From an uncultured Eubacteriales bacterium (GTDB lineage: Bacteria > Bacillota > Clostridia > Oscillospirales > Acutalibacteraceae), in NCBI GenBank assembly GCA_900315195.1, contig OMYD01000022.1, positions 1 to 42,050 of the forward strand: 42,050 nt of DNA. The letters run 5' to 3'. The position numbers were made by a program, and so were the translations under genes. Positions 1,437 to 23,161 of this stretch are shown here, in pieces (the stretch's first letter is position 1; every line of letters begins with the position of its first letter). The notes under the pieces are model-generated. The model ran no database searches. It saw nothing but the letters and a program-made list of their open reading frames with translations, and was not told the DNA's origin.

Positions 1437-3752
1437 TCAGCTTTCCACCAGTCTTATCGCCACCGCCGTGATGTCGTCATCGCGGGTTTCGGCGCGGCGG
1501 CGGATAGCCTCCTGCACTACAGCCTGAGCCAAATCCTGAACGCTGCCCTCGTTCCATGAGCGAATCAGTCTTTCAAGCCATCTTTCATCACCTGTAATTA
1601 CTCCGTCTGACACCATTACCACCATATCTCCCGCACCGAGCTTTATTGTATCCGATGAAAATTTGATATTATTTAAAATTCCCGCGGGCAGCGACGGCAT
1701 TTCACGCGTCGTCAGCCTGCCGTTTTTCTTTATATATGTCAGCGGAGCGCCCGCCTTTTTCAGCGTTAATCCGCCCGTAAACAGGTCAACGCCCGCCAGG
1801 TCGACCGTTGACAGCGACTCGTCCTCGCTTTTTATCATAAGAGCCGAATTGACAATCTGGAGCGAGCTGTCGGGCGAGAGCCCCGACCTGAGCAGCCTGC
1901 CCATAACCGATACCGCCATATTGCCGTCAACCGCAGCTCTGCCGCCTGTGCCCATGCCGTCGCAGACAAGCGCGTAGGTGTTGCCCATTCCGTCGCTGAA
2001 ATAGTCAATGCAGTCGCCGCACAGCTTGCCGCCGTCGGCTATGTGCTGGTCGGTTCCGATTTCAACATCGTAGAGCGGCATTTCACACATCGCCGCGCGC
2101 ACTCTTCCGCCCTCAAAGCTCAGAGCGGGCAAATCAAACCTCCGTCCGCAGCACTTGCTGACCTCGCGCGCCAAGCCGCCCTTTGAGATTTTTTGGTCGG
2201 GGCGCTGAGAAAGCTCAAGCTCAACGGTCATTCTGCCGCCTCCGCTGCGAAGGCAGACGCAGTCCGCCACGGCGTAGCCCGCCGCGCTAAGGGCGACGAT
2301 AATCCTCTCGGCGCTGTCCTCGTCCGAGACCTCGGTCGAGCTGAACTCCTTTGACAGGTCGCGCAGAATGTCGCTCACGCCCGCAAACTGCCCCGCGACA
2401 ACGCCCCTCAGCTCTGCAACACGGCTCTGAGCTTCCTTTGCAGCCAGAAAATGGCGGTAGTTTTGGTTCATATGCTCGGCGATTTCGCCCTTTTTGCAGC
2501 AGTTTTTTACAAAGGCTTCCTCAACATCCCTGTCGCTGAGCCTCCCCTTTTCCGCCAGAACCTCCTCAAGGCGGTAAAAGTCGTCGCGCGTCACTCCGCC
2601 CTTGTGCTCGTAGCAGTACATTTTCAGTCCGCAGCCGCCGCACACATCACGGGCGACGTTTTCGCAGACCCACTCAAATGTCGGTGAATACATTTCACTC
2701 AGCTTTTCCGAAACCGATTTCACGTCGTTTTTCACGTTTGCAATTGCCTTTGAGGTAAAGTCCAGCCGCATTACAACATTTCGGCGCAGGCTCTCGCCCA
2801 GTGACGTCGTTTTCTCGCTGCCGAAAATCGGCGACACAACATTGCCGACCTCCTTTGGCAGAATCATGAAAATCACCGCTCCGAGCATGCTCTCAATAAG
2901 CACCGCGGGCAGCATGTTTTCCCTGCCGAAGGCGAGGCTCATTATTGAATTTGACATCAGAAAGCTTACAGCGCAGCCCAGCTTTCCAAGGGGCGCGAAA
3001 ACCCCCGACATAAGCCCTCCGAAGGCAAAGCCTCCGCAGATATATCCCAAGCCCGTGTCGGCAAGGCTGAAAACCGCGCCCGTCGCGGCGCCGCTTACGG
3101 CTCCTCCGCCGACGCCTCCGTAACGCGCGCAAAGCAGAATAACCGCGACCGCTATTACGCGCCCGACGGACACGCCCTCAACAGCCAAGTCGCCGAGCGA
3201 CAGCATAAGCACGCAGCCCGTCAGCACCACGCCCGCGCTCTCCTGCCGGGTAAACGCCGAAATGCTCCTGTGACGCGTGCTTAATCGGACTGTCATAGCC
3301 ATAAAGTACGCCGCCGCGCCCGCAAGAGCCGCCTCGATAACGCAGTCGGTCACCGAGGATATTGTTCCCATATTGCCGAACACCAGCGCCACGCCCGTTG
3401 ACAAAACGGTTCCGAAGGCCAAAAGAGGCGCGAACAGCCTGCTCTGCCGTATGAAGTCAAGCTCGCTGAACAGCCAGCGCAGCGCGCCGATTGCCACAAC
3501 CACAGCCACATATCTGAAGCTGCCCGATGGAGTCAGCACCGCGTAGCCGATAGCCGTACCCGCAAGCGACGAAGCCAGCCTGTTTTTCGGAACAGCCGCC
3601 GCGTATGACGCCCCGAACGGAGCCAGATTCCCCATAACCGCTCCGCGTGACACCAGAAACCCCAGCAGCCCGTAAATGACATTTGCCGCCGCGTTTTTAG
3701 CAAAGCTTTTTTCTTCCGCACGCCTTACGCGTGCTGTTTTTACGCTCTCCAT
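1437..3752 (-). CDS. spoIIE: Stage II sporulation protein E (SpoIIE), membrane PP2C phosphatase
   Basis: Dephosphorylates the anti-anti-sigma factor SpoIIAA, which frees sigma F in the forespore; SpoIIE also acts at the polar septum. Residues ~20-310 hold about ten hydrophobic segments. A central cytoplasmic region follows, with a conserved cysteine cluster (CGGCGLKMYC, near residue 370). From ~561 to the end is the PP2C phosphatase domain with its metal-binding motifs CDGMG (597-601), VSDGV (714-718) and RDDDITA (757-763). The 771-residue length is slightly shorter than B. subtilis (827). The ATG at 3752 follows AAAGGAAG. It is transcribed alone, divergently from ruvX, from an unusual long-spacer promoter. 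The spo0A, spoIIAA and sigF partners are not in the window. Reliable identification. Confidence 0.96.
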   Translation of the reverse strand: MESVKTARVRRAEEKSFAKNAAANVIYGLLGFLVSRGAVMGNLAPFGASYAAAVPKNRLASSLAGTAIGYAVLTPSGSFRYVAVVVAIGALRWLFSELDFIRQSRLFAPLLAFGTVLSTGVALVFGNMGTISSVTDCVIEAALAGAAAYFMAMTVRLSTRHRSISAFTRQESAGVVLTGCVLMLSLGDLAVEGVSVGRVIAVAVILLCARYGGVGGGAVSGAATGAVFSLADTGLGYICGGFAFGGLMSGVFAPLGKLGCAVSFLMSNSIMSLAFGRENMLPAVLIESMLGAVIFMILPKEVGNVVSPIFGSEKTTSLGESLRRNVVMRLDFTSKAIANVKNDVKSVSEKLSEMYSPTFEWVCENVARDVCGGCGLKMYCYEHKGGVTRDDFYRLEEVLAEKGRLSDRDVEEAFVKNCCKKGEIAEHMNQNYRHFLAAKEAQSRVAELRGVVAGQFAGVSDILRDLSKEFSSTEVSDEDSAERIIVALSAAGYAVADCVCLRSGGGRMTVELELSQRPDQKISKGGLAREVSKCCGRRFDLPALSFEGGRVRAAMCEMPLYDVEIGTDQHIADGGKLCGDCIDYFSDGMGNTYALVCDGMGTGGRAAVDGNMAVSVMGRLLRSGLSPDSSLQIVNSALMIKSEDESLSTVDLAGVDLFTGGLTLKKAGAPLTYIKKNGRLTTREMPSLPAGILNNIKFSSDTIKLGAGDMVVMVSDGVITGDERWLERLIRSWNEGSVQDLAQAVVQEAIRRRAETRDDDITAVAIRLVES

Positions 3753-3783
3753 AGTTTAAACTTCCTTTGTTTTTGATAAGGAT

Positions 3784-3825
3784 ATTATAGGCTTTGGGGC
3801 GCAATCGTTTTGTCACACCGTGACA
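3784..3825 (-). promoter_or_regulatory. spoIIE promoter with 21-bp spacer and a dyad over the -35
   Basis: On the minus strand, GTGACA (3811-3816) and TATAAT (3784-3789) are 21 bp apart. The -35 lies in a perfect dyad, TGTCAC-ACC-GTGACA (3811-3825). The B. subtilis spoIIE promoter is known for a 21-bp spacer and Spo0A activation. No exact TGTCGAA box is present, so Spo0A control is inferred from the spacing. Confidence 0.55.
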
Positions 3826-3867
3826 GGTTGATTTTATATTCTTTTGTAGAAATTTCTTGCCAACCGC

Positions 3868-3896
3868 TTGTATCTTTTCCGCTTTTGAATTATAAT
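3868..3896 (+). promoter_or_regulatory. Sigma-A promoter of ruvX
   Basis: TTGTAT (3868-3873), 17-bp spacer, TATAAT (3891-3896). The ruvX ribosome binding site AAAGGA follows at 3912-3917. Confidence 0.7.
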
Positions 3897-3925
3897 GTAA
3901 TTATCAAGCTGAAAGGAATAATTAT

Positions 3926-4339
3926 ATGATTATAATGTCGGTTGACTTGGGAAAAGCCAGAACAGGGCTTGCGCTCAGCGATAAAACGGAGTTCTTGGCG
4001 TCGCCGTACAAGGTGATTTTTGAAAAATCGCCCAATAAGCTGCCCGATAAAGTCGCTCAGGCGGCAAAAGAGGCAAACGCTGAGCTTATTGTGGTGGGCT
4101 TGCCGAAAAACATGGACGGAACCGAGGGCGAAAGCGCCCAAAACGCGCGCGCCTTTGCCGAAAAGCTGAAGGAGCTGACTGGGCTGCCCGTTGAAATGCA
4201 GGACGAGCGCGGCACAACCGTAACGGCTCATCATTTTTTAAACGATACCAACACCCGCGGCAAAAAAAGAAAAACCGTGGTCGACGAGGTCGCCGCCACG
4301 ATTATTTTGCAGGATTATTTGGATTCTCGCAAAACTTAA
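3926..4339 (+). CDS. ruvX: Putative pre-16S rRNA nuclease / Holliday junction resolvase RuvX (YqgF)
   Basis: RNase H-fold nuclease of the YqgF family, implicated in pre-16S rRNA 5' maturation and Holliday junction resolution. The N-terminal motif SVDLGKARTGLALSD carries the first catalytic Asp (D7). VVGLPKNMDGTEG, QDERGTTVTA and VVDEVAATIIL supply the remaining family blocks. The 137-residue length is normal. The ATG at 3926 follows AAAGGA. Codons 109 to the middle of 129 lie inside a 62-bp sequence repeated perfectly at 5570-5631, and the last codons (QDYLDSRKT) differ from those after the second copy (QNYLDKRKNK). The gene has therefore probably received a replacement 3' end from an inserted element while staying intact. 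Confidence 0.93.
   Translation: MIIMSVDLGKARTGLALSDKTEFLASPYKVIFEKSPNKLPDKVAQAAKEANAELIVVGLPKNMDGTEGESAQNARAFAEKLKELTGLPVEMQDERGTTVTAHHFLNDTNTRGKKRKTVVDEVAATIILQDYLDSRKT
4250..4311 (+). repeat. 62-bp direct repeat, left copy (ruvX codons 109-129)
   Basis: Identical base for base to 5570-5631; identity stops sharply on both sides. It contains CGTGG (4276-4280) facing CCACG (4296-4300), a small internal inverted repeat that could be a recombination core. It acts as the left junction of the 1,320-bp insert. Confidence 0.92.
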
Positions 4340-4376
4340 AACATCCCACATTCAAAAAATTGATGTGGGATGTTGG
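4340..4376. terminator. Bidirectional terminator between ruvX and the insert membrane gene
   Basis: A 12-bp perfect stem (4340-4351 with 4363-4374, AACATCCCACAT/ATGTGGGATGTT) follows the ruvX stop directly. It lies just beyond the end of the converging gene at 4384. The trailing T-rich tract is weak in both directions. Confidence 0.65.
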
Positions 4377-4383
4377 TTATTAT

Positions 4384-5073
4384 CTATAAAAGCGACATTC
4401 CGCAGTTTTCGCAAAACTTTGCGTTGGAAGGCACTACTTTTCCGCAATATCGGCAATACCTTTTTCTGCTTTCCGGCGAATTTATTGTTCTGTTTTGCTG
4501 AATATGTGAATCGTTAAATTGTATAGGTGAAGCTATGGAATAATGGTTATCGTTTTCTACTCTCGCTTGAGGAGCAATTCCATTATATTTGTATTGATGT
4601 TTATAGTAAGCTATTAAAGATATTATTATTATTCTTAAAAGAATTATCAGTATAGCAACCACTATACCCTCGACGTTCGTTGTTCCAGAACCTGTTTTTG
4701 ATTTGGCGTTAATCCTTCCAAAGAATAATACCATTCCGAGTATTAAAAATACAATAGATAAAGCGGCAAATACAATCATCAACACACCGCCACACAAGCG
4801 CCTGTTTTTCAAGCTGATTATACCCGGAATAATAAACGCCAGTTCCCATAATATGTAAAATAAATAAACTACTATTACAATCGTTATTGATGAATCGAGT
4901 GATTGTAATTTCACGTTTGAACCATATAACGTTTGAATATCTTTCTTTATAGTATTAATTTGATCTATAGAGAGTAACAAACCAATAAAAAAATATATCA
5001 TTATTGCGACTGATGAAATTATTGCTAAAAGAGCAATTGCTTTTCTGATAATCTCAGATTTTTTTAATTCCAT
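4384..5073 (-). CDS. Four-helix membrane protein with C-terminal zinc ribbon
   Basis: Unknown function. A short basic N-terminus is followed by four hydrophobic segments (~8-33, ~50-77, ~88-112, ~126-150 from the chosen start). A cytoplasmic tail then ends in a zinc-ribbon module, CRYCGKVVPSNAKFCENCG. The start is the ATG at 5073 because GAGGTGG lies seven bases upstream; an upstream ATG at 5130 would sit on the promoter -35 and has no ribosome binding site. The gene is divergent from the XRE regulator, shares a control region with it, and is part of the insert in ruvX. The pairing with a repressor suggests tightly controlled expression; a toxin or defence role is only a guess. Confidence 0.75.
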   Translation of the reverse strand: MELKKSEIIRKAIALLAIISSVAIMIYFFIGLLLSIDQINTIKKDIQTLYGSNVKLQSLDSSITIVIVVYLFYILWELAFIIPGIISLKNRRLCGGVLMIVFAALSIVFLILGMVLFFGRINAKSKTGSGTTNVEGIVVAILIILLRIIIISLIAYYKHQYKYNGIAPQARVENDNHYSIASPIQFNDSHIQQNRTINSPESRKRYCRYCGKVVPSNAKFCENCGMSLL

Positions 5074-5101
5074 AATAAACCACCTCATAATAACTATTAG
5101 T

Positions 5102-5176
5102 ATTATATAACAACCTTCAGTTGTTGTCAATAACTAATAATAAGATTTTTAACAAACACCTAAAAGTTGTTAATAT
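5102..5176. promoter_or_regulatory. Divergent promoters with two inverted-repeat operators
   Basis: Minus promoter: TTGACA (5125-5130), 17 bp, TATAAT (5102-5107). Plus promoter: TTAACA (5149-5154), 16 bp, TAATAT (5171-5176). ACAAC-N5-GTTGT (5110-5124) lies in the minus promoter spacer. TTAACAA-N11-TTGTTAA (5149-5155 and 5167-5173) spans the plus -35 and touches the -10. The shared ACAA/TTGT half-sites suggest one regulator, probably the XRE protein next door, acting on both promoters. Confidence 0.7.
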
Positions 5177-5195
5177 TATAGCAAGGGGTGTTATT

Positions 5196-5522
5196 ATGGT
5201 TAGAAATCTCAAAAAACTGCGTAACAAAAAGAAAATAAGCCAACAACAATTAGCCGATATTATTGGCGTTAGTCAACAATCGATAAACAAATATGAAAAC
5301 CATAGTGTAGAGCCTGATATTGAAACCTTAATAAAACTTTCTGAATTCTTCCAGACTTCTGTTGACTATCTTATCGGGCATACCGAAGTGGATCATATTA
5401 TTGAGAAACTTGAACCTTTTGAATTAAATGATGAAGAAAAAAGGCTGATTACTAACTTTCGCAGATTAACTGCCAAACAGAAAAAATGTCTATTTACTGT
5501 AACCGATAGTTATTTTGAATAG
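5196..5522 (+). CDS. XRE-family helix-turn-helix regulator
   Basis: 108-residue protein. An N-terminal Cro/CI-type HTH covers residues 1-60, with the classic pattern SQQQLADIIGVSQQSINKYE and the closing VDYLIGHTE. A short C-terminal helix-rich tail may dimerise. The start is the ATG at 5196 after AAGGGG. The in-frame ATG at 5121 is rejected because it lies upstream of the plus promoter and inside an operator. The protein is probably an autorepressor that also controls the divergent membrane protein. Low G+C and AAA/TTA-rich codon use set it apart from the host genes around it. Confidence 0.9.
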   Translation: MVRNLKKLRNKKKISQQQLADIIGVSQQSINKYENHSVEPDIETLIKLSEFFQTSVDYLIGHTEVDHIIEKLEPFELNDEEKRLITNFRRLTAKQKKCLFTVTDSYFE

Positions 5523-5569
5523 GCTATATAAAACTTTGAATAGAAAAACGACCTCCTTTATATAAAACA

Positions 5570-5662
5570 AACACCCGCGGCAAAAAAAGAAAAACCGTGG
5601 TCGACGAGGTCGCCGCCACGATTATTTTGCAAAACTATCTTGATAAACGTAAAAACAAATAA
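5570..5662 (+). pseudogene. Displaced 3' fragment of ruvX
   Basis: Reads in frame from ruvX codon 109 (NTRGKKRKTVVDEV...) through QNYLDKRKNK to TAA at 5660-5662, with no start codon or ribosome binding site. The first 62 bases are identical to the live gene. It is followed at once by a good terminator, so this is probably the original ruvX end, cut off when the 1.3-kb insert entered. Confidence 0.85.
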
Positions 5663-5670
5663 AAACAAAC

Positions 5671-5704
5671 AAGCCGCCGCGAATAGCCGCGGCGGCATTT
5701 TTAT
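5671..5704 (+). terminator. Intrinsic terminator (ancestral ruvX end)
   Basis: GCCGCCGCG (5673-5681) pairs with CGCGGCGGC (5688-5696), followed by ATTTTTAT. It now terminates transcription leaving the insert and converges on the lipoprotein gene. Confidence 0.85.
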
Positions 5705-5705
5705 A

Positions 5706-6107
5706 TCAGCCCTCAAACGGAGCTACAGTATTAAATTCCTCGTCATCCTGATCCTGCTGCTGTTCCTGCTGATGAGTGGTTGACTGTTCCTCATACGGAG
5801 CTACGGTATTGTCCTCCGGGTCATCCTGAGACGACTGAGATGCCTGAGGCGCCTGAGCAGGCGCTGAGCCGTTTTCTTCGTATGGCGCTACGGTGTTGTA
5901 TTCATCTGTCTGTCCTCCGTTATTATCATTATCGGCAGAGGTTTTGGTCTTTTGACCGCTCGCCTTGGTGGTCGCGGCTGCGGTTGTCGCAGACGCTTTT
6001 GACGATGAACTGTTGCTGCTGCTCTTGGAGCCGCAGCCTGTGATTGTAAACATCGCTGCCGCGGCAATTGCCGCTGTCATAACAATAACTAAAAATCTCT
6101 TTCTCAT
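5706..6107 (-). CDS. Small lipoprotein with three NTVAPYE repeats
   Basis: 133 residues, function unknown. A signal peptide ends in the lipobox TITGC, so the Cys should be lipidated and the protein anchored outside the membrane. The mature part is low-complexity Ser/Ala/Thr and Gln/Asp/Glu. It carries three spaced copies of one motif: YNTVAPYEE, DNTVAPYEE and FNTVAPFEG (the last at the C-terminus). The spacers are acidic and glutamine-rich. The ATG at 6107 follows AAAGGGG. It lies downstream of the sensor kinase gene on the same strand, 113 bases away, so it may be co-transcribed. The regular motif suggests a short peptide ligand or a multivalent attachment element. Confidence 0.8.
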   Translation of the reverse strand: MRKRFLVIVMTAAIAAAAMFTITGCGSKSSSNSSSSKASATTAAATTKASGQKTKTSADNDNNGGQTDEYNTVAPYEENGSAPAQAPQASQSSQDDPEDNTVAPYEEQSTTHQQEQQQDQDDEEFNTVAPFEG

Positions 6108-6220
6108 GGTTATCTACCCCTTTAATTACATTTTTCAGTAGGTTTTTCCTTGACTGTGATTAAAGTATAGCAGACAGAGTATGACAAAAACAGGACAAAA
6201 ACAAGCAGTTTTTTCAAAAA

Positions 6221-7855
6221 TTAAAATTTTGCGGTAAAAATAAGGGTTTTGTCTTTAAATTCAAAGCCGTAAGCTTCCTTGTGCAAATCCAGAATTGATT
6301 TAACGATAGACAGTCCCAGGCCGTTGCCCTTTTGGTGGCGGCTTTTGTCTTTTCTTACATAAGGCTGCCAGATTTCCTTCAAATCGCTTTTCGTAAGCGG
6401 CTCGGACTCATTTGAAACGGAAAATGTCCTGCCGTCAAGTGTGACATTTATTTCCGAATCCGGCAGAGAATACTTCACCGCGTTGTCAATAAGGTTCTGG
6501 AGAGCGGTTTTCAGAAGCTCCCTGTCCGCCTCGATGATGTTATCGCCGCTGTGTGTAAACTCAAGCTTTTTGCCGTTTGGCAGCGCGGTGTAGTTTTGCA
6601 GGATAGACTCAGTCAGCTCAAGCAGATCAAACTGTGATTTATTAAGCTTCATACGGTATGAATCCAGCTTACTGTAGCTTAGCATTCTGTGAACAAGTCC
6701 GTTTACCTCGTCGGTTTGCTCAATGATTTTGTCGATATATTCACCGCGCTCCTCAGCGTCGATATCCTCCTTAATGGTGTACGCGTAGCCGCTTATTACA
6801 AACAGGGGCGTTTTTATATCGTGCGCAAGAGCGTTTGTTAGGTCAAGCCGCTTCTGCTCCTGAATAATCTGAGCCTTTACGGTTAGCCAAATCATAACGC
6901 AGAGAATAACGGCAATCGTAAAAAAGAATCCGAAAATAATAGCGACACCGGCGGCTAAATCCCATTTGCAGTTGTCAAAAAGATTAACCTCCCTGGCGTA
7001 TTGAACGATCCAGACATCGTCATTTTCGGCGTACTGTGATTCATTAAAGCCCAGATAGTCGTAAGCGTAAAAAATATAGTTGAGCCCGCCCGTATGAATC
7101 ATATCTACGTTTGATTTGCGCTGTTCCTTTGTAAGCGTACCGATGATATCCTTGTTATATTCTCCGTTAAGCAAAAAATCCTTGGGAATAACATTGCGGC
7201 GTATGTCGCTGCTATCGTAAACCCCTTCCTCGTCGACGGGAACATGATTAAGCTTATAGACAGCCACGTTGTCGTCGATGACAAACCTTTTGTCTTTTGC
7301 GTCGACCAAAACAATCTTCAGCTCAACAGGCTCCAAAACAATGCCAAACTCAAGCTTTGTACATATAAGCTCATAATAATTTCCGTCGCCGCGCTCAGTA
7401 TTGAGCAATTTTTCAATATCGCCGAACTGCCTGTCACTGAGTGAGTTGCGAAGGGTATTGTAGTTAATCAGAGATACAAAACTTACGTTTTTACCCTCAG
7501 GGGTTTTAATACTGAACGGCACGGCTATGCTATCCGCTGTATCGGCAATCACCTTGTTTGTTTTTCGGTTGGTAAACACAACCTGGCTGTCAAAGCTATT
7601 GCAGCCGTCCTGATTGTAAACAAAGTCCATACGGTCGCTCAGAATACGCGAAAACGCCTCAAAGTCTCCGTTTCCCACTGTCAACAGCTGCTTTGACACG
7701 GACAATTCGGCAAGCTCGTTGTTTTGGACGCTTACCTTTTCAATGCTGAGCCGCACACCGCAAAACACCGATGACACCGTCAGCCACACCGCGAATATAA
7801 TCACAATAATCCGCAAAAACAGCTTATTGCGCTCATGTTTTAACCGTTTTTCCAT
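6221..7855 (-). CDS. Sensor histidine kinase (orphan)
   Basis: 544-residue two-component sensor. TM1 (~12-34) and TM2 (~300-326) enclose an extracytoplasmic sensor region of ~265 residues with no family I recognise. The cytoplasmic part has a HisKA box ALAHDIKTPL (His345) and an HATPase domain with LQNLIDNAVKYS (Asn454) and GNGLGLSIVKS (~510-520). The start is the ATG at 7855 (MEKRLKHERN) with TGAGGT eight bases upstream; the in-frame ATG at 7915 lacks a ribosome binding site and would overlap the MITE. No response regulator is adjacent on either side, which is unusual for this VanS/PhoR-like type. A MITE lies directly upstream. Confidence 0.9.
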   Translation of the reverse strand: MEKRLKHERNKLFLRIIVIIFAVWLTVSSVFCGVRLSIEKVSVQNNELAELSVSKQLLTVGNGDFEAFSRILSDRMDFVYNQDGCNSFDSQVVFTNRKTNKVIADTADSIAVPFSIKTPEGKNVSFVSLINYNTLRNSLSDRQFGDIEKLLNTERGDGNYYELICTKLEFGIVLEPVELKIVLVDAKDKRFVIDDNVAVYKLNHVPVDEEGVYDSSDIRRNVIPKDFLLNGEYNKDIIGTLTKEQRKSNVDMIHTGGLNYIFYAYDYLGFNESQYAENDDVWIVQYAREVNLFDNCKWDLAAGVAIIFGFFFTIAVILCVMIWLTVKAQIIQEQKRLDLTNALAHDIKTPLFVISGYAYTIKEDIDAEERGEYIDKIIEQTDEVNGLVHRMLSYSKLDSYRMKLNKSQFDLLELTESILQNYTALPNGKKLEFTHSGDNIIEADRELLKTALQNLIDNAVKYSLPDSEINVTLDGRTFSVSNESEPLTKSDLKEIWQPYVRKDKSRHQKGNGLGLSIVKSILDLHKEAYGFEFKDKTLIFTAKF

Positions 7856-7901
7856 TTTTAACCTCAATATATTTTTACATTTGATTATTTGTATATTACT
7901 A

Positions 7902-8060
7902 ATACTAATTTCCATTAAAATGCTTTAAAACAGATGTTAGCGGAAAATTTCGCAGAACAAGGCGGAGAACGCGGGAATCCTGACGGATTCCGAGGACGAC
8001 AACGCAGTTATGCGGATTTTAACGCAACAGATGTTAAAGTGTTTTATTGGATATTAGTAT
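7902..8060. mobile_element. 159-bp MITE, copy 1
   Basis: Terminal inverted repeats of 25 bp (7902-7926 and 8036-8060) agree at 21 positions. Beyond them the interior is also an imperfect inverted repeat centred on GAATCC...GGATTC, so the whole element can fold into one long hairpin. A TA dinucleotide at each end fits TA target-site duplication (mariner/IS630-type). Copy 2 at 23003-23161 has exactly the same length and shares blocks such as GAGGACGACAACGCAGTTA. No coding capacity. It sits upstream of the histidine kinase. The rest of the gap (8061-8145) is A+T-rich with no gene. Confidence 0.8.
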
Positions 8061-18148: not shown

Positions 18149-18320
18149 CGGCGCAACTTCTCTCGCGGGTCGCCATGTTTGGTCAATCTCAAACATCTGA
18201 TTCGCGTCGTGAAAGTCGGCTCAGCCGACCGGCGCAACTTATCTCGCGGGAATTTAGTGTTTATATATCTCAAACATCTGATTCGCGTCGTGAAAGTCGG
18301 CTCAGCCGACCGGCGCAACC
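18149..18320. repeat. 81-bp tandem repeat with an internal perfect palindrome
   Basis: CGGCGCAAC begins units at 18149, 18230 and 18311, exactly 81 bp apart; the third unit is cut after ~10 bases. A 52-base block (18187-18238 and 18268-18319) is identical between copies. Within it lies the palindrome GTCGGCTCAGCCGAC, with TCTCGCGGG in each left part. Open frames cross it because 81 is divisible by three, but there is no ribosome binding site or protein-like composition. Probably a structured intergenic repeat. Confidence 0.8.
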
Positions 18321-23002: not shown

Positions 23003-23161
23003 ATACTATTATCTGATAAAACGGTTTAAAACAGATGTTAGTGGAAAATTTCGCATAACAAGGCGGAGGACGCAGGAATCCTGTCGGATTCCGAGGACGA
23101 CAACGCAGTTACGCGGAATTTAACGCAACAAATACTAAACAGTTTTAACAGAAGATAGTAT
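23003..23161. mobile_element. 159-bp MITE, copy 2, in the metK leader
   Basis: The same length and layout as copy 1 at 7902-8060. The 25-bp terminal inverted repeats (23003-23027, 23137-23161) match at 21 positions, with TA at both ends, and the core shares CGAGGACGACAACGCAGTTA. It lies between the SAM riboswitch terminator and the metK ribosome binding site. It would be transcribed in every read-through message and form a long hairpin. Confidence 0.8.

Follow-up and report, generated by a model that had tools for sequence, protein, structure and literature searches.

How did two small genes come to lie between two copies of the 3' end of ruvX, a housekeeping nuclease gene, in the genome (G000) of an uncultured gut bacterium of the Eubacteriales? 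The locus is part of a 42,050-bp stretch of contig OMYD01000022.1 (the window; assembly GCA_900315195.1), in which a preliminary description had noted perfect direct repeats around an A+T-rich insert. Both features are reproduced here: positions 4250-4311 and 5570-5631 are identical over 62/62 bp at a start-to-start spacing of 1,320 bp (98 bp at 86% upon ungapped extension, 4237-4334 / 5557-5654), and the insert has 31.1% G+C, below all 192 other 1,258-bp windows (37.4-58.6%). Open reading frames (ORFs) and Pfam matches also agree with the earlier view of its cargo, which consists of a 229-residue zinc-ribbon membrane protein on the minus strand and a 108-residue XRE protein on the plus strand, with nothing else coding between the repeat copies.

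The polarity of this arrangement is revealed by a related species (G113) in which a single ruvX with the tail QNYLDKHKNK is continuous with the lipoprotein and histidine-kinase genes that lie to the right of the insert in the window. Window positions 2700-4324 align to 1975-3599 of the G113 locus (L239) at 86.8% identity and positions 5567-7867 to 3522-5809 at 82.1%, and no direct repeat of at least 24 bp is present in L239 3100-4200. In the window, the left copy completes ruvX with the tail QDYLDSRKT, which differs from the tails of both the empty site and the right copy, and the right copy keeps the ruvX reading frame as a 3' remnant with the ending QNYLDKRKNK. Because the empty site shares the right tail, we consider the right tail native and the left tail with its hairpin imported. 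It is thus near certain that the insertion is derived and gave ruvX an imported 3' end, as the preliminary description had proposed; its predicted empty allele ending in QNYLDKRKNK exists with one residue changed, so that not every relative is filled. A further relative, G006, carries a third tail (QDYLDKAT) at the same ruvX 3' end (L003:1893-2145) without the insert, and is not a clean empty site because of this different tail and because no match to the lipoprotein gene of G000 and G113 is found there. Neither G113 and G006 nor G013 are among the genomes of the genus collection that match the insert DNA (21/161, E <=0.001) or the XRE protein (33/161, E <=1e-12). The features of the locus are as follows:

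3891..4311, no strand: recombination tract over ruvX, left edge chosen post hoc
3926..4339, plus strand: complete ruvX, 137 residues (PF03652, E 1.9e-42), of which the last 28 bp (4312-4339, DYLDSRKT and stop codon) are imported
4250..4311, plus strand: left 62-bp repeat copy (ruvX nucleotides 325-386)
4340..4374, no strand: imported hairpin with a perfect 12-bp inverted repeat behind the new ruvX tail, a possible terminator that the terminator scan did not call
4384..5073, minus strand: cargo protein of 229 residues, membrane protein as judged by eye, with a C-terminal zinc ribbon (PF13240, E 2.8e-07)
5099..5195, no strand: conserved divergent region with an ACAAC-N5-GTTGT repeat and a second GTTGTTAATATTA box, conserved as DNA in 11 other genomes; putative operator and promoter region
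5102..5130, minus strand: consensus promoter facing the cargo gene (TTGACA-17-TATAAT, 12/12, promoter scan), in the same arrangement across the module family
5196..5522, plus strand: XRE (HTH_3) protein of 108 residues, the family marker (PF01381, E 5.1e-19); putative repressor
5570..5631, plus strand: right 62-bp repeat copy, the start of the native ruvX remnant, which continues into the native tail and the genes beyond it, as ruvX does in G113
5632..5662, plus strand: native ruvX tail NYLDKRKNK and stop codon, now apart from ruvX and in agreement with the empty allele of G113 (QNYLDKHKNK)
5673..5702, plus strand: native ruvX terminator (terminator scan), kept in G113

A terminator had been proposed behind both copies. 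On the left only the hairpin itself stands, and on the right a stem at 5673-5696 was called on both strands, which is weak alone (2 sites compared to 2.0 expected in shuffled sequence) and is conserved in G113. Of 12 promoter-like sites called in this region, compared to 6.5 expected, only the cargo promoter scores 12/12, and the ATG start of the cargo gene at 5073 is our choice over the TTG at 5130 in the ORF list. By script, only two perfect direct repeats in the window reach 40 bp, the 62-bp pair and a 53-bp repeat with 81-bp spacing (18186-18319). Separately, a 145-bp direct repeat pair of 87% identity lies 15.1 kb apart at 7902-8046 and 23003-23147, and no tRNA gene was found in the window.

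Proposed recombination inside ruvX

The explanation that we favor, with about an even chance of being right, is insertion-duplication, in which recombination within ruvX would have captured, behind this gene, a switch module composed of the XRE and membrane protein genes. Incoming DNA would have carried ruvX sequence ending in a tail of its own and, behind it, the module. The left join would have formed by homologous pairing within ruvX, and the far end of the import would have been joined to native ruvX 62 bp ahead of the start of the native tail, either by circularization of the import and a single crossover or by end-joining. These two joins would leave ruvX complete but ending in imported sequence, and its native 3' end would be kept as a duplicate stump. 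This order of events is our reconstruction, in which RecA or other host recombination rather than a site-specific enzyme would have acted.

If imported DNA pairs within the gene, the imported tail is expected on the left and the native one on the right, which is the order observed. Moreover, a recombination tract covers ruvX itself. Its DNA at 3926-4249 is 97.8% identical to G006 and 93.2% to G113, and the preceding 2.4 kb, including a 771-residue gene and intergenic DNA, are only 84-87% identical to either relative, which are 90-92% identical to each other. Informative sites at which the window agrees with G006 or with G113 are distributed 18:3 in 3881-4311 compared to 82:84 in 1437-3880 (Fisher P 0.002). 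Capture by recombination should show homology to the host gene on one side and a detectable imported allele, and we see these in the ruvX tract and the imported tail, which we infer to stem from the same event. The tract, the order of the tails, and the lack of shared or inverted ends among related inserts (see below) therefore lead us to favor capture within the host gene. The unlike left and right tails in both ruvX inserts (G000 and G156), the varying length of the duplications, and the clean insertion in G099 also speak for it.

A possible role of ruvX as attachment gene

The preliminary description had instead regarded ruvX as an unusual attachment gene of a minimal element mobilized in trans. 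An integrase encoded elsewhere could have acted in trans on a nonautonomous element resembling the cis-mobilizable elements (CIMEs), whose attP would include a ruvX 3' end and replace the gene tail; we regard this as the main rival, though somewhat unlikely. It would account for the element-borne sequence that restores the ruvX 3' end, and G000 has 7 tyrosine-recombinase matches, 6 of them over the cut-off. The second RuvX is rare, though: RuvX is matched in 149/161 genomes of the genus, and among these 149 a second match exists only in G000, G156, and G104, the last being an N-terminal half at a contig end. In an order-wide sample that did not include G156 and in which copies below ca. 25 codons would be missed, the C-terminal part of RuvX was found in 368/394 genomes and twice only in G000 (0/367 others).

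The case of G156 (L238:3711-6061) also answers the suggestion to look for other cargo between ruvX repeats. Here a radical SAM/SPASM gene and a small zinc-ribbon gene lie between a complete ruvX and a second ruvX 3' part, which forms a 189-bp duplication at 96% identity with again different left and right tails. By our own count, the identity ends at ca. nucleotide 381-386 of ruvX in both independent inserts, which speaks for an integrase, but the naturally variable RuvX tail begins at this very point. No close relative of the G156 insert was found among 39 genomes. PADLOC also gives viperin-type matches for its radical SAM protein (E 3.9e-15), but we take the SPASM domain to suggest a peptide-modifying enzyme.

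Gene content downstream of ruvX differs among genomes (54 genus loci with 80 ORFs). Against an integrase in trans, the 25 of 34 Pfam families listed for the 60/80 scanned ORFs include zinc ribbons (4 ORFs) and HTH_3 (9 ORFs) but no integrase; the zinc-ribbon genes behind ruvX elsewhere are not close in DNA to the insert in the window. As judged by eye, helix-turn-helix (HTH) proteins of ca. 300 residues starting MNIETANRLLQYRKENNLSQEELAE recur directly behind ruvX at these 54 loci.

Neither scanning viral contigs for a DNA pattern nor scanning their proteins confirmed a ruvX fragment. Of 18 phage-collection records matching ruvX at E <=1, the best and only one opened, MT837064.1, holds a whole ruvX among housekeeping-type genes. 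Of 15 matching plasmid records, 8 match under an annotated ruvX (going by annotation only), and the insert DNA has no match in either the plasmid or the phage collection. Literature searches found no paper joining ruvX with integrase and insertion site, or yqgF with integration site and genomic island, though one paper in the library searched lists yqgF with integrase and attB. We find no support for ruvX as a regular attachment site of phages or plasmids.

Further evidence in favor of an integrase comes from another locus. In L134 (2016-4840), the 3' end of spo0A holds a 2.6-kb insert with a gene for a 338-residue tyrosine recombinase (PF00589, E 9.1e-35). Its flanking direct repeats are 116 bp long and 98% identical, the left copy ending at the stop codon, and a module of XRE and SHOCT genes directly follows the insert. 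This spo0A 3' end is likely an attachment site next to a module. Yet the sister modules of our insert use other genes and thus lack a common att site, and some of them duplicate the ends of those genes. Together with the scarcity of a second RuvX, this leaves the earlier claim of ruvX as an attachment gene unsupported.

The module family and its scars at other genes

DNA that is 69-76% identical to the XRE gene and the region upstream of it is present in 11 other genomes of the genus, and XRE proteins that are 49-65% identical to ours are encoded at 12 further places in 11 genus genomes. An alignment of 12 members retrieved 117 relatives from the genome collection, of which we kept 80 loci, plus 2 viral contigs. 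A divergent ORF lies just left of the XRE gene in 71/83 sequences (not all are cargo; the ORF picked at the ychF site of L107 is ychF itself). Pfam scanning of 65 cargo proteins, i.e., 64 of the 71 divergent ORFs (the other 7 are probably no cargo genes) and the L138 zinc-ribbon protein, gave BspA-type leucine-rich repeats (9), zinc ribbons (6), SHOCT (5), dockerin (3), S-layer (2), and superinfection-immunity (2) domains, and many of these proteins start with signal-peptide or lipoprotein-like sequences as judged by eye. The ACAAC-N5-GTTGT repeat and the cargo-facing consensus promoter are conserved in the aligned loci (n = 14) except L138, and 70/81 loci (30 perfect) have a divergent promoter with no more than 1 mismatch in each box, compared to 15/368 control stretches (1 perfect). 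It is well supported that the insert belongs to a widespread family of modules pairing an XRE gene with a divergent gene for a mostly exported or membrane protein. Judging from this layout, the XRE protein probably represses the divergent membrane-protein gene and may repress itself together with the strong cargo promoter. A defense-system label for the cargo was discarded, since PADLOC gave no match to the membrane protein and only 20 HTH-type matches to the XRE protein.

Related modules adjoin other genes such as murC, gpmI, an FkbM-type gene, and glgA (the names of murC, gpmI, FkbM, ruvX, and the integrases are from Pfam, those of glgA, hppA, ychF, thioesterase, spo0A, lipoprotein, and the spoIIE-like 771-residue gene were assigned by eye). 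Flanking repeats measure ca. 135 bp at murC (G177), 86 bp at 95% at gpmI (L138), 27 bp at the FkbM-type gene (G099), 40-63 bp at 81-92% in the ychF/thioesterase promoter region (G179, G181), and 54 bp at 96% around the module at the terminator behind spo0A (L134), so that the duplications, including those at ruvX, are 27, ca. 40-60, 54, 62, 86, ca. 135, and 189 bp long. Comparison to the empty site in G001 shows the G099 module to be a clean insertion with a 27-bp duplication. For G179, the empty site is found in G002, though with other DNA in the same intergenic region; the murC relatives G003 and G009 have a single copy, and the right flank of G177 cannot be compared as its contig stops ca. 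100 bp past the right copy.

The ruvX repeats could alternatively be an assembly artefact, with contigs of two strains misjoined through a shared 62-bp stretch of ruvX. The perfect identity of the copies and the fragmented G000 assembly (125 contigs, 6.3% contamination) would fit, but module sequence rather than ruvX precedes the right copy, so that a chimeric read would be needed, and the empty sites agree with the filled ones (G001 for G099, G113 for G000). Because similar scars are present in assemblies of several other genomes, we consider an artefact very improbable.

Are these scars then the signature of a new small mobile element? XRE-cargo modules might insert at gene 3' ends, terminators, or promoters and copy 27-135 bp of target, with the tail difference at ruvX stemming from later allele exchange. 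Flanking repeats (local alignment score >=50) are indeed enriched, being found at 8/77 testable XRE loci compared to 5/512 control ORFs in the same loci (Fisher P 4.5e-5), but the cut of 50 was set with the scores already known, and longer flanks were demanded of control ORFs than of XRE loci. The 77 loci are 83 sequences (82 loci and the window) minus 4 that were too short and minus L149 and L158, which were self-matched; among 518 control ORFs, 11 scored at least 50, but 6 of these belonged to the cargo of the same inserts, and leaving them out gave 512 ORFs with 5 hits. The enrichment persists without L131, whose repeat is intergenic and not at a gene end (7/77, P 2.3e-4), when the same-site loci L096/L097 are in addition counted once (6/76, P 0.001), and when the window itself is also left out (5/75, P 0.0045). 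No 18-mer of the L131 repeat recurs in the other loci analyzed, so that it is not shown to be a dispersed repeat.

In all 8 repeat-flanked loci, the right copy starts 6-123 bp past the XRE stop codon (350 bp searched), which would fit a new element, as would the clean G099 insertion. A wider search gave further, mostly weak pairs spanning the XRE gene; the stronger ones at L105 (435 bp at 83%), L113 (42 bp at 88%), L156 (35 bp), and L164 (22 bp) are uncounted because one copy lies farther away or the score is below the cut. Across 853 kb of XRE loci we find 20 repeat pairs, of which 7 touch a gene 3' end: the module-bounding pairs of L088, L109, and L138, a distant span in L113, the pair at spo0A in L134, and two in tandem genes of L137. 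A comparison of 400 kb from G062 gave five pairs within the same limits, one at the 3' end of a 94-residue ORF and the others intergenic.

The case for a new element is weakened by the 69/77 testable loci that have no visible flanking repeat, by the inserts of G156 and spo0A, which are similarly scarred with no XRE gene inside, and by the differing ruvX tails, which would demand a second event. Nine delimited inserts share no ends and have no terminal inverted repeats, bar one same-site pair. We thus think a dedicated new element quite unlikely. An insertion sequence or transposon was rejected, as we find no transposase and neither inverted nor shared ends, and the duplications of 27-189 bp are not short and fixed.

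Several points weigh against capture by recombination inside ruvX. The murC insert of G177 shows no recombination tract in murC compared to G003 or G009, and the tract in ruvX, its left edge set post hoc, could be an unrelated exchange in either direction. A duplication of 27 bp as in G099 is short for homologous recombination, and no donor with the module beside ruvX and without duplication was found by searching 161 genus genomes with the insert DNA, though it may be unsampled. Finally, the spo0A element of L134 shows that scars of this kind also arise in this clade by site-specific integration.

In a broader perspective, it would be conceivable, albeit unlikely, that modules of XRE and exported-protein genes are undescribed, recombinase-less mobile switches of 1.1-2.4 kb in gut Clostridia that dock at gene 3' ends, terminators, and promoters with duplications of 27-135 bp, moved by host recombination or a helper enzyme; our literature searches do not establish that the family is undescribed. 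If true, any housekeeping gene could serve as a dock for a module.

Relation to known systems

With its empty sister allele, imported tail, and native stump, the ruvX locus is a polarized example of small regulated genes for surface or membrane proteins entering genomes without a recombinase of their own. It raises the testable question of whether duplicated gene 3' ends are scars of homologous anchoring during accessory-gene capture or are made by unseen integrases. Members of the module family are easy to find by their conserved operator region, and a fresh duplication around a module is probably a sign of recent gain.

Among known systems, integrative mobilizable elements (IMEs) and CIMEs can reside at the 3' ends of protein genes. 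Like them, the insert in ruvX brings a 3' end that restores its target gene, is flanked by direct repeats, and has an empty site in a relative. In contrast to an IME, it contains no recombinase or integrase gene as judged by ORF and Pfam scans, which a CIME would also lack, and its sister modules sit at various genes instead of sharing one attachment gene.

A closer mechanistic parallel may be the lacZ gene of Escherichia coli, where, according to one study, circularized linear DNA enters by a recA-dependent single crossover and leaves duplications that measured 109-950 bp in the 14 clones that were sequenced (PMC3240628). There, as at ruvX, foreign DNA lies between direct copies of a gene end, at variable length and without a dedicated recombinase. 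Unlike this experimental system, the ruvX case is natural, comes from a gut Clostridium, has sister duplications from 27 bp upwards, and is known from sequence alone. Displaced 3' gene ends have also been described at type VI secretion system and Rhs loci of Vibrio, for which homology-facilitated illegitimate recombination was proposed (PMC5361080). These loci resemble ours in that an import anchors in a conserved stretch, adds genes, and leaves older 3' parts as orphans downstream. They differ in that ruvX is a housekeeping nuclease gene and that its cargo is a regulator with a membrane protein rather than an effector with an immunity gene.

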